30,662 bases of DNA from a virus, in IMG/VR virus record IMGVR_UViG_3300017755_000051, positions 1 through 30,662 of that record; one strand, 5' to 3'. Position numbers and translations under genes: made by a program. Positions 27 to 3,235 of this stretch are shown one piece after another. The notes under the pieces are model-generated. The model saw nothing but the letters and a program-made list of their open reading frames with translations, was not told the origin of the DNA and searched no databases. The first letter of the stretch is position 1, and every line of letters begins with the position of its first letter.

Positions 27-248
27 ATGAGCTTTAATCAACACACTTTATTTGACATGACGCCAGATGAGAAAACAGGCGAAATTGATAAAACAAAAAT
101 TGAGTATGTACAATTAGCTTTTGAACTTGGAAATAAAAAAAAGTTTTATGTGATGTGCGAAAAATTATTAAAAATTTACAATTTAGATAACTACACTGAT
201 TTAGTTCATGAGGTAATCAAGGAAACATATGAAAAAAATTTCACTTAA
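27..248 (+). CDS. Small phage protein of unknown function
   Basis: A 73-residue acidic-to-neutral protein I do not recognise with certainty. The ATG at 27 is preferred over the TTG immediately before it because an AGGGG ribosome binding site lies about 8 bases upstream. The C-terminal half (ELGNKKKFYVMCEKLLKIY, then a DNYTDLVHEVI segment) looks like a compact alpha-helical domain. Its end overlaps the start of the dioxygenase gene by 20 bases in another frame, so it is probably translated together with the modification operon. Whether it works with those enzymes is only inferred from position. The operon may continue to the left of the window. Confidence 0.75.
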   Translation: MSFNQHTLFDMTPDEKTGEIDKTKIEYVQLAFELGNKKKFYVMCEKLLKIYNLDNYTDLVHEVIKETYEKNFT

Positions 249-1137
249 AACTAAGGTAAACGGAAATGAATTAAACAAACTTTTATATGAGTTTGCAGGA
301 GAAAATCATTATGATGAAATTATTAATGAGGATTGCGATTGTTACGATAGTCAAGGTAAGCCAATTTTGTTTTTAAGAAAAAACCACATTGATAAAAACA
401 TTTTATACAACGCTTATAAGAACTTAGAAAAAGCGGCTACCCCGACGAGCAATAGGGGTGCTTCAAGTGGAGGCGATAGGAAATTCACAATAACCAAAAC
501 AGGCGAAAAAACAAAAACGCTTCAAGTATATGATAAAAAAACAGGCGAAGTCGTTAAAGATAAAAGCGGAATAATTGGTTACTTTGACAGGTCTGGGCAT
601 TATGATTTTTGCAGAACGACATCTTTTAATATATATCATAAAGAAAAGTTTGAAGAGTCCATGCCCCTAATAAACACTGTTGATAAAGGCTTTAAGGAGA
701 TTGTTCCCGAAAGGTATAAAAAACAAAAATCGATGGTCATGGCTACCGATCCAAACTACAGAATTGGAGAAACTGCTTTTTCTACGATTACCGTAAACAA
801 AGATTACAGAACAGCGTTTCATACCGATCAAGGCGATTACCCTGAAGGGTTCGGCAATTTAGTTGCGTATTGTAAAGACGTAGAGCCTGTTTATTTAGTT
901 TTACCAAAATTCAAAGTAGCTGTAAACCTAGAAACAAACGACCTTTTATTGGTGGACGTTCATCAAATACATGGGAACACAGAGATAATAAAAAAATCAA
1001 GCTCAGGGGTAAGGCTTAGTTTTGTTATGTACTACAGGAACAATATGTATAAGTGCCTCAGCCCAAAAAAAGAGTTGAAAAGAATACAAATGAGGCAAAG
1101 GTATGTAGGCCAAAGGTTTATAGCGGGTGAAATGTAA
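229..1137 (+). CDS. TET/JBP-family 2-oxoglutarate/Fe(II) DNA dioxygenase
   Basis: Predicted to hydroxylate the 5-methyl group of thymine or 5-methylcytosine in DNA using Fe(II), O2 and 2-oxoglutarate. The 302-residue protein has an N-terminal segment with TSNRGASSGG (residues 73-82), a glycine-rich stretch I associate with phage TET/JBP proteins, and a C-terminal double-stranded beta-helix. Visible metal ligands are H198 and D200 in FHTDQGDYPEGFG and H248 in VHQIHGN; R262 in GVRLSFVMYYR is the likely 2-oxoglutarate-binding arginine. The HxDxGD...HxN...R order and spacing fit JBP/TET better than AlkB or prolyl hydroxylases. It is followed by the amidotransferase with a TAATG stop-start overlap, and a DNA-hydroxymethyl kinase lies two genes further on. 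The substrate (T or 5mC) cannot be decided from sequence alone. Confidence 0.85.
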   Translation: MKKISLKTKVNGNELNKLLYEFAGENHYDEIINEDCDCYDSQGKPILFLRKNHIDKNILYNAYKNLEKAATPTSNRGASSGGDRKFTITKTGEKTKTLQVYDKKTGEVVKDKSGIIGYFDRSGHYDFCRTTSFNIYHKEKFEESMPLINTVDKGFKEIVPERYKKQKSMVMATDPNYRIGETAFSTITVNKDYRTAFHTDQGDYPEGFGNLVAYCKDVEPVYLVLPKFKVAVNLETNDLLLVDVHQIHGNTEIIKKSSSGVRLSFVMYYRNNMYKCLSPKKELKRIQMRQRYVGQRFIAGEM

Positions 1138-1853
1138 TGTGCGGCATAGCAACTGTATTAAAAAAAAATAAAATTAATAAAAAAGAAAAAAATATTTTTA
1201 TTAAAATAATGAAAGAGTCGTCTGTTAGGGGATTACACAGTTTTGGATTTGCTTACAAAAAAAGTTTAAAAATAAAAACCAGCAAACATCACAAATTAAA
1301 AAACGCAATAAAATATTTTATAGAAAACATAAACAAAGATTTTATATATCACAACAGATATTCAACTAGTGGAGACTGGAAAACTCACCACAACAACCAG
1401 CCAATTAAATTTAAAAATGACGCTTTGGTGTTTAATGGTGTTATAAGCATGAAAGAAAAAACAGAAATGGAAAAACAATTTAAAATAAATATGGCTCAAG
1501 ACAATGATGGCGAAATTTTCCTTCAAAACATTAAAAAGCCTTTGAATTTTGTCACTGAAAACAAAATTTCTTTTGCTGGTTTGTTTTTTAAAAACAATAA
1601 AATTTACGCACTAAGGAATTATTTACGCCCTACCTGGTATTCGATAAAGGGTGAAGCTGTTTTTATTGCTTCAACTAAAGACATTTTAAAAAGATCAGGG
1701 CTTAAAGATATTTTCAGTACAGAACCTAACGTAATATACAAAATAGAGGATTTTTTTGAACAGAGAAAAAGACTACATAAACTATCATATCAAAATGATG
1801 AGCAATGGGGATACAGACCCAGCAAACAGTTGCCTGCTCTACATTGCGAATAG
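1137..1853 (+). CDS. Stand-alone class II glutamine amidotransferase (Ntn hydrolase) domain
   Basis: The protein begins MCGIA, the signature of class II amidotransferases in which Cys2 becomes the catalytic N-terminal nucleophile after Met removal; this fixes the start at 1137. Further family-like motifs in order are RGLHSFG (31-37), HNRYSTSGDW (72-81; compare HTRWATHG of GlmS), NNQP (86-89; compare NAHP), FNG (99-101; compare HNG) and DNDGEIF (122-128; compare the TDTE region). At 238 residues it contains only the glutaminase half, with no isomerase, PRTase or synthetase domain, so any acceptor enzyme must be a partner. It sits between the dioxygenase and the kinase genes, suggesting a nitrogen-transfer or amide-hydrolysis step in DNA modification; that role is inference. 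Its last 98 bases overlap the next gene in another frame. Very A-rich with many lysines. Confidence 0.82.
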   Translation: MCGIATVLKKNKINKKEKNIFIKIMKESSVRGLHSFGFAYKKSLKIKTSKHHKLKNAIKYFIENINKDFIYHNRYSTSGDWKTHHNNQPIKFKNDALVFNGVISMKEKTEMEKQFKINMAQDNDGEIFLQNIKKPLNFVTENKISFAGLFFKNNKIYALRNYLRPTWYSIKGEAVFIASTKDILKRSGLKDIFSTEPNVIYKIEDFFEQRKRLHKLSYQNDEQWGYRPSKQLPALHCE

Positions 1854-2655
1854 ATTTGACATAACGCTAGAACAAAGATACTGGCTTTGCTTTTTATATT
1901 CTACGTGTTATTGTGCACCCACAGCTTATTATATTTTTAATGAATTTCCAGATTATGAGCTTGTTGACTTTAACAGGCTTGAAAATTGGTGGTATCAAAA
2001 CAAAAAAAATTTAATTTTTACCACAGATAAAGCGTGGGTTAGAAGCAGGGATCAGTTTGTAGACGTAATAAAAAGTTATAAAGAAATAATTGGAGAAAGT
2101 CAGGTTAAAACCTACGACAAATTAAAAACCAGTTGTAAAAAGAAAACTTATCAAAATTGCTTCAATAACTTTAAAAAAGTTTATCAAATGGGAAGGTTTA
2201 GTTTATTTATCTATTTGGATGTCATTCATCACGTGACAGGCTTTTTAATGGAACCAAATGGATTAGATTTGCCAAACGCTAAATCCTCCAGAAATGGTTT
2301 GTGTTATGCTCTTGGTTTAGATCACTACATAAGTTACAATAGAGAAGCAAAACTAAATCAAAAACAGTATGAAGAATTAAATGAAGGGTTTTGGTCCATA
2401 TATGATAAAATATATAAAATAAGACCTCACGACACAAACGTTTGGGGCATTGAGACAACTTTATGTGCTTATAAAAAATATAAAAAAAATAAAAAAAGAT
2501 GGGTTGGCTATTATATAGAAAGGCAGCGAAAAGAAATAGAAAAAATGCAAAATTGGGTAAAAGAAGGCGTAAATTGGAAGCCGCTTTGGGATTATCGTCA
2601 AGAATATTTTCCAATTAAAATGCTTAAGGAGAAAACAAATTATGAACTTTTCTAA
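1756..2655 (+). CDS. Helical DNA-hypermodification protein (5-hmdU kinase-associated / amino acid:DNA transferase type)
   Basis: A mostly helical 299-residue protein. Two blocks match my memory of the helical domain found with phage 5-hmdU DNA kinases (HMUDK_hel) and the alpha-glutamyl/putrescinyl thymine pyrophosphorylase (amino acid:DNA transferase) group: RYWLCFLYSTCYCAPTAYYI with NEFPDYELVD (residues 41-71), and GRFSLF...LDLPNAKSSRNGLCYALGLD (146-189). In that group the protein acts on the activated hydroxymethyl base in DNA. The chosen start is TTG at 1756, with AGAGGA at 1745-1750 and a 5-base spacer; ATG codons at 1795 and 1798 are alternatives without a clear ribosome site, and all conserved residues lie after them. 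It overlaps the kinase gene by 14 bases. Separate kinase and helical genes are notable because the two are often fused. Assignment is from motifs only. Confidence 0.7.
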   Translation: MNREKDYINYHIKMMSNGDTDPANSCLLYIANRFDITLEQRYWLCFLYSTCYCAPTAYYIFNEFPDYELVDFNRLENWWYQNKKNLIFTTDKAWVRSRDQFVDVIKSYKEIIGESQVKTYDKLKTSCKKKTYQNCFNNFKKVYQMGRFSLFIYLDVIHHVTGFLMEPNGLDLPNAKSSRNGLCYALGLDHYISYNREAKLNQKQYEELNEGFWSIYDKIYKIRPHDTNVWGIETTLCAYKKYKKNKKRWVGYYIERQRKEIEKMQNWVKEGVNWKPLWDYRQEYFPIKMLKEKTNYELF

Positions 2656-3208
2656 AATAACGTTAATCGGAGGAGAGCCTTGCACTGGAAAGTCTACTTT
2701 AGTGAGGTCAATTATAAAAAGAAAGAACATTAATCAAAAGTTTGAATATGAAAAACTACTTAAAGGCCACACTAACGATGAATACATTGTCATAGGTGTT
2801 TACAATAACGGATTATTTGATGGAACAGATAAATTAAGCATGGCAGTTCAACCAGCGTTTGAAAGGTTTGTGAATAAAGAAAAAACAAAAAAACATATAA
2901 TATTAGAAGGCGACAGGCTTTTTAAGAAAACCCTAATTAGGTGGTTGCAATCTTCAAAACATTTTTTTAGATTAATTATTTTAACTACAGAAGAAAAAAC
3001 AAAAGAATTCAGACACAAATCAAGAAACGACAACCAAACTGAAAAATGGCTAAATTCTAAAAAAACAACAATAAAAAACGTAACAAACGAATTCAATCAT
3101 ACAACATTCCAAAACGAAAACACTTTACAAATGGAAAAGATTATAAAATACATACTAGAAGAAAAGAACGATATAATAAACAGACCGAATCAATACAAGC
3201 TATTCTAA
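2642..3208 (+). CDS. P-loop 5-hydroxymethyl-pyrimidine DNA kinase
   Basis: A 188-residue P-loop kinase predicted to phosphorylate the hydroxymethyl group of 5-hmdU (or a related base) in DNA, activating it for replacement. It has a Walker A motif GGEPCTGKST (residues 10-19), a distinctive LFDGTDKLSMAVQP block (58-71) that I associate with phage 5-hmdU DNA kinases, and a hydrophobic strand ending in EGDRLF (89-94), probably the Walker B region. Basic residues near R124, R128 and K135 could form the lid. A ribosome site GGAGA lies 9 bases before the ATG. The stop codon is part of the stem of the terminator at 3207, so this is the last gene of the operon. Ordinary nucleotide kinases have different substrate motifs, which makes them a less likely identity. 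Confidence 0.78.
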   Translation: MNFSKITLIGGEPCTGKSTLVRSIIKRKNINQKFEYEKLLKGHTNDEYIVIGVYNNGLFDGTDKLSMAVQPAFERFVNKEKTKKHIILEGDRLFKKTLIRWLQSSKHFFRLIILTTEEKTKEFRHKSRNDNQTEKWLNSKKTTIKNVTNEFNHTTFQNENTLQMEKIIKYILEEKNDIINRPNQYKLF

Positions 3209-3235
3209 AGGGTATAGTTACCCTTTCTTTTTGTT
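3207..3235 (+). terminator. Intrinsic terminator closing the modification operon
   Basis: AAAGGGTA (3207-3214) pairs perfectly with TACCCTTT (3219-3226) around the 4-base loop TAGT, followed by a T-rich run (CTTTTTGTTTG). The first stem arm overlaps the stop codon of the kinase gene. Strong match to a Rho-independent terminator. Confidence 0.85.

Follow-up and report, generated by a model that had tools for sequence, protein, structure and literature searches.

The virus record IMGVR_UViG_3300017755_000051 of the IMG/VR collection, whose 30,662 bases were analysed as a whole and are called the window here, includes at its start, on the + strand between nucleotides 229 and 3208, an operon that encodes a TET/JBP-type dioxygenase and three further putative DNA modification proteins. 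The open reading frame (ORF) list gives four genes, with overlaps of 1, 98, and 14 bp between successive members, followed by a terminator:

229-1137, + strand: gene 1 (TET), TET/JBP-type 2-oxoglutarate/Fe(II) dioxygenase, by PF12851 and invariant residues.
1137-1853, + strand: gene 2 (GAT), stand-alone class II glutamine amidotransferase (glutaminase domain), by profiles and invariant residues.
1756-2655, + strand: gene 3 (ADDT), amino acid:DNA transferase of the aGPT-PPlase clade 2 type, with a TTG start, by PF18724.
2642-3208, + strand: gene 4, P-loop kinase, by Walker A, invariant residues, and fold.
3207-3226, + strand: intrinsic terminator, an 8-pair stem with a T-rich tail.

The hairpin (-14 kcal/mol, z = -3.7) was equalled by none of 200 shuffles, and both it and the ORFs confirmed that the four-gene TET/GAT/ADDT/kinase operon is genuine, as had been proposed in a first-pass annotation of this DNA. 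The arrangement is not a product of chance because the identical gene order, TET > GAT > (GNAT) > ADDT > kinase, was found in 42 viral contigs, with three more that are truncated or incomplete. A megablast comparison of the window with phages gave no match.

Three of the four gene identities suggested in that annotation were borne out. The product of gene 1, taken there for a TET/JBP enzyme, matched the Pfam family Tet_JBP (PF12851) with 77.4 bits (cut-off 34.9, E 9e-22), and the Fe ligands, which are the HxD motif (H198, D200) and H245/H248, as well as the 2-oxoglutarate-binding R262 are invariant in 44 of 44 relatives. When the protein was searched by sequence against the PDB, only sub-threshold alignments to TET2 were obtained. 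Ten contigs of bacterial metagenome-assembled genomes from diverse phyla (L128-L137) also encode related TETs.

Gene 2 had been named a class II glutamine amidotransferase. Its product starts with MCGI and matched the PHROG glutamine:fructose-6-phosphate aminotransferase profile (E 1e-12); compared with the family profile the window protein itself reaches 19.5 bits, below the cut-off of 27. GATase_6 is matched by all 26 members of the GAT family at E <= 0.01 (best 1e-14), and the GAT profile aligns with the PurF/GlmS structures (E 3e-9). The catalytic set, consisting of the N-terminal nucleophile C2, R74, N100-G101 of the oxyanion hole, and D124, is invariant in 26/26, and judging from these residues gene 2 is a catalytically intact class II glutaminase. 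In the lineage of the window the GAT has a C-terminal extension, whose coding region accounts for the 98-bp overlap with the ADDT gene, the two being read in different frames; more distant GATs stop about 30 residues sooner. The larger GATase of the Pseudomonas tf/LUZ24 phages was rejected as a member of the same system because it lies beside amidoligase and ATP-grasp genes.

The third gene had been described as a helical kinase-associated protein, and this assignment had to be replaced: the Pfam search gave no HMUDK_hel match, and the protein is instead the transferase itself, with 51.3 bits to ADDT PF18724 (cut-off 26.2, E 1.7e-13) and an hhalign probability of 99.9% to the Kuttervirus aGPT-PPlase2, a clade 2 protein. 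The sole credible Foldseek neighbours of its AlphaFold2 (AF2) model (pLDDT 93) were 8z2n and 8z2m (probability 1.00, TM 0.60-0.65), structures of the 5-phosphomethyl-deoxyuridine (5-phosphomethyl-dU) glycinyltransferase gp46/PUGT of the Pseudomonas phage PaMx11. The residues T90-D91, G146-R147, S177, R179-N180-G181, E233, C237, and R248 occur in 20/20 relatives and are listed here as conserved residues only. An internal ATG at nucleotide 1795 was considered as the start and rejected; the TTG was kept because it corresponds in position to the ATG of the relatives, which immediately precedes the shared conserved DYIxYH segment.

The fourth product, previously described as a P-loop hydroxymethyl kinase, shows by itself only a weak match to AAA_18; of the 38 members of its family, 23 match Ploopntkinase3 (PF18751, best 1e-12). 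Walker A G16-K17, E89, R92, R124, R128, and Q132 are invariant in 38/38, and the AF2 model (pLDDT 89) has a nucleoside/nucleotide-kinase fold. The enzyme is predicted to phosphorylate a base-linked hydroxymethyl group.

The source of that group could be approached because the genome can be closed. Contig L004 overlaps the window end (100% over 1561 bp) and the window start (99.97% over 7537 bp), so that the genome closes at about 32.9 kb. Between the window ends lie 2252 bases with an HNH gene, small genes, and, just upstream of the cassette, a GNAT acetyltransferase gene. Neither PF00303 (thymidylate synthase/dUMP hydroxymethylase) nor PF00145 (C5-cytosine methyltransferase, the one Pfam family used in the methyltransferase search) was found in the window or in L004, which supplies the sequence outside the window where these genes had been suggested to be looked for. 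As positive controls, a ViI-type Kuttervirus gave a PF00303 match and the phage Melnitz a PF00145 match; the searches are thus sensitive enough, and the PF00303 negative is informative. Among 50 records carrying both TET and kinase, of which the window and L004 make up two, PF00303 was found in none and PF00145 in three, absences that are no more than suggestive because many of the records are fragments. A family-A DNA polymerase was found in none of 16 long records, which fits modification after replication by the host. Since the closed genome has neither PF00303 nor PF00145, thymine in finished DNA appears to be the likeliest and simplest substrate, and a TET-type oxidation is supported as the origin of the hydroxymethyl group, as had been suggested earlier.

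We consider it probable that the operon hypermodifies polymerised DNA. The TET/JBP enzyme would hydroxylate thymine within DNA to 5-hydroxymethyluracil (5hmU), the P-loop kinase would convert this to 5-phosphomethyl-U, and at the ADDT step a nitrogen nucleophile would take the place of the phosphate. The GAT, which appears to be translationally coupled to the ADDT, would free ammonia from glutamine to give, most likely, 5-aminomethyl-U, which might then be acylated by the GNAT whose gene lies in the 2.25 kb adjoining the window. The purpose is likely to be protection from restriction, which is what such modifications are known to provide (PMC6449724). Oxidation, phosphorylation, and phosphate displacement follow from families of known function; we infer thymine as the substrate, the order of the reactions, the use of ammonia, the acylation, and the protection. 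The sequence of kinase activation and replacement by an amino-acid-like group had also been suggested in the first-pass annotation, and replacement by an amino group is supported by the resemblance of the gene 3 fold to a 5-phosphomethyl-dU glycinyltransferase.

Several observations weigh against this scheme. The comparison of the kinase with the ViI-type 5-hydroxymethyl-dU (5hmdU) DNA kinase (P-loop nucleotide kinase 2), made for similarity extending past Walker A, was unconvincing, with an hhalign probability of 19%, and the nearest solved relative of the ADDT uses glycine, which bears on the ammonia step. D203, three residues past the HxD aspartate, was dropped as a discriminator between thymine and 5-methylcytosine (5mC): it cannot tell the two apart because it is invariant in 44/44 TETs, including those of methyltransferase-bearing records, and thymine is proposed as the TET substrate from the lack of a methyltransferase. 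A host C5 methyltransferase could provide 5mC, and a related kinase, a TET, and a C5 methyltransferase occur together in Melnitz, i.e., the families are found in an apparent cytosine setting. The TET could then oxidise 5mC made by the host, or by a methyltransferase of an unknown family, with kinase and transferase acting on 5-hydroxymethylcytosine. This cytosine version, which we regard as unlikely, is favoured by the Melnitz order of C5 methyltransferase, TET, unknown gene, and Ploopntkinase3-family kinase, by the C5 methyltransferase match in 3 of the 50 TET and kinase records, and by TET2, the sequence-nearest enzyme of known structure, being a methylcytosine dioxygenase. On the other hand, no C5 methyltransferase of the PF00145 family was found in the closed genome or in 47 of those records, sparse host methylation would offer few sites, and the solved relatives of the transferase and of the lyase described below belong to dU hypermodification.

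When IMG/VR was scanned with the families of TET and of the kinase, more than 100 loci were obtained (at least 562 TET relatives exist), whose counts describe patterns rather than rates because the loci are partly kinase-selected and the contigs are not independent lineages. Besides the 42 contigs with the order found in the window, TET is followed by a glycinyltransferase-type ADDT, a flavoprotein, and a kinase in 7 contigs, by a kinase with or without ADDT in 12, and by the TET-associated glycosyltransferase (TAGT, PF20691) in 27. When only loci with at least 2.8 kb of downstream sequence were considered, the kinase was present in 38/38 GAT loci, 25 of which have a GNAT gene inside the operon; the lineage of the window has the upstream GNAT gene. 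Among 74 such loci the kinase (49) and the TAGT-cluster genes (18) never occurred together. Across the 50 rows of the TET tree, at least 19 switches of the second stage were counted. The nearest TET to that of the window, in L006 (87% identity), is linked to the glycinyltransferase/flavoprotein module; among solved proteins, the transferase of that module matches the glycinyltransferase 8z2m (E 5e-14) and the ADDT-domain protein 25qc (E 4e-19). For the flavoprotein family, a match to the solved flavin-dependent lyase 8z2o (E 9e-8) was obtained with the L050 member. The transferase and lyase of this sister module thus appear to be enzyme types of the known thymidine hypermodification.

In the sister cassette glycine transfer followed by the flavin lyase would leave 5-aminomethyl-dU. 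The coupled glutaminase takes the place of the lyase in the cassette of the window, which suggests direct delivery of ammonia by the GAT. According to this tentative proposal, which we hold with less confidence than the general scheme, ammonia from the GAT would be used by the ADDT on TET-derived 5-phosphomethyl-dU in finished DNA to form 5-aminomethyl-dU in one step, with acylation by the GNAT afterwards; if so, GAT and ADDT would offer another way to the amine that glycine transfer and flavin lyase otherwise provide. About as likely is that the same thymine route ends with the ADDT adding an amino acid, e.g., glutamine, glutamate, or glycine, and that the GAT amidates the side chain or tunes the local glutamine/glutamate pool. 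This possibility, which deserves serious consideration, draws on the relatives of the ADDT that move amino acids (the 8z2m glycinyltransferase and the alpha-glutamyl/putrescinyl annotation in Kuttervirus) and on four loci (L013, L020, L021, L029) that have an ADDTa-type transferase and a kinase without GAT, from which it follows that the ADDTa type can work without GAT. It is countered by the need of the GAT glutaminase for an acceptor domain, the sole synthase-like partner being the overlapping downstream ADDT, and by a cassette without an ATP-dependent amide ligase. In addition, loci with the flavin lyase, which would liberate the amine of a glycyl adduct, have no GAT; this exclusion is statistically weak because 38 GAT loci stand against just 3 lyase loci with enough sequence.

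The repeated exchange of whole modules also bears on the idea that the cassette represents decayed or unrelated cargo genes in a phage with unmodified DNA. The G+C content of the cassette is 31% compared with 36% in the rest of the window, and the phage is uncultured; against these points, the catalytic residues are invariant in divergent relatives, the order is fixed in 42 contigs, and the overlapping ORFs are intact, and we consider this explanation very improbable.

One more feature lies directly 5' of the TET gene and overlaps its start:

24-248, + strand: small conserved ORF of 74 amino acids.

It is kept in close relatives (E 1e-48 to 6e-10), shows weak similarity to ParB-type proteins that precede TET in other contigs (E 6e-7 to 2.5e-5), and is homologous to the C-terminal tail of the ParB_N proteins holding that place in other TET loci, in one of which the ParB_N domain was recognised. 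ParB_N proteins adjoin TET in 64 loci (e.g., L056:2350-3009 and L060:832-1461), and the published cassette of the Rhodococcus phage Tonitrus likewise opens with a ParB-like gene. The ParB-like protein or the small ORF product is a possible DNA-targeting partner of TET. Among other TET neighbourhoods, that of the Pelagibacter phage HTVC112P (L003:8497-9195) has, next after TET, a gene with the annotation FkbM-family methyltransferase, whose product possibly O-methylates hydroxymethyl bases. The phages Cr30, in which kinase and TET lie about 7 kb apart, and DLP6 were set aside as having TET without a recognised full cassette, and the DNA methyltransferase beside TET in P12024L is of the N6/N4 type (PF01555) and hence not a C5 enzyme.

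Iyer et al. are said to have predicted TET-derived hypermodified pyrimidines in 2013, and the Pfam ADDT, Ploopntkinase3, and TAGT models reportedly stem from that line of work. The combination of genes in the window had been thought to be new. For TET, kinase, and transferase this did not hold, since this core is already known and annotated in Tonitrus (PMC11955845); the amidotransferase branch and its exchangeable neighbours may be new, no description of them having been found in the open-access literature. Cassettes of this kind, with parts swapped between them, are present in dozens of environmental phages. If the proposed scheme is correct, a phage of about 33 kb can decorate thymine without a modified nucleotide, expulsion of deoxythymidine triphosphate, or a family-A polymerase of its own; very small phages would then hypermodify their DNA without controlling nucleotide pools, and the modification, being initiated by oxidation on DNA, may be site-selective. 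The modular set, in which one TET is combined with glycosyltransferase, glycinyltransferase/flavin lyase, or GAT/GNAT second stages, could readily supply enzymes that put reactive amines on thymine within DNA.

Among the closest known systems is that of the cultured phage Tonitrus (PP978825), in which ParB, TET-like, aGPT-Pplase2, and 5-hmU kinase genes are annotated together (PMC11955845). As in the window, TET-like, ADDT, and kinase genes form one operon, which in Tonitrus lies behind a ParB-like gene (ADDT E 9e-23; kinase, to PF18751, E 4e-50; TET weaker, 32.2 bits against the cut-off of 34.9), and neither PF00303 nor PF00145 was found in the complete genome; it differs in the absence of a GAT (no match to the GAT-family profile A7). 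Its gene 8 (L142:3761-4642), 3' of the kinase, shows by eye an FAD-binding-like start with no Pfam match, and is a candidate for the flavin lyase in this operon.

The route from dUMP hydroxymethylase through 5hmdU kinase to transferase is established for M6, ViI, and phiW-14 (PMC6449724). Thymidine hypermodification in ViI, M6, and PaMx11, described by Lee et al. (2018, 2022) and by Wen et al. (2024) according to PMC11946847 and PMC6449724, resembles the proposed system in that a kinase and an ADDT-family transferase act on hydroxymethyl-dU DNA after replication, and the flavin lyase is found in the sister cassette. In those phages a thymidylate-synthase-like enzyme, found in Kuttervirus, supplies 5hmdU at the nucleotide level, whereas this enzyme is absent from the window genome, where TET comes first. 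Kinetoplastid JBP1/2 hydroxylate thymine in DNA to 5hmU (PMC6449724) and are thus alike in this reaction; their next step is glucosylation, with no kinase and transferase. The TET > TAGT phages (PF20691) share the TET lineage and TET as the first enzyme, but their second step is glycosylation, whereas the next gene in the window is the GAT and the locus has no TAGT-cluster gene.

The locus of the Methylophilales phage Melnitz (L141:1451-5531), annotated merely as a type II methylase and hypothetical proteins, has the order C5 methyltransferase > TET > 427-amino acid protein > Ploopntkinase3-like kinase. It shares the clustering of TET with a PF18751-like kinase and differs by its C5 methyltransferase and by having no recognisable ADDT or GAT; its gene 7 was rejected as an ADDT by profile (hhalign 0.2%). 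This locus probably specifies cytosine hypermodification. Tonitrus with neither synthase nor methyltransferase, Kuttervirus with the synthase, and Melnitz with the methyltransferase make the origin of the hydroxymethyl group testable in cultured phages.

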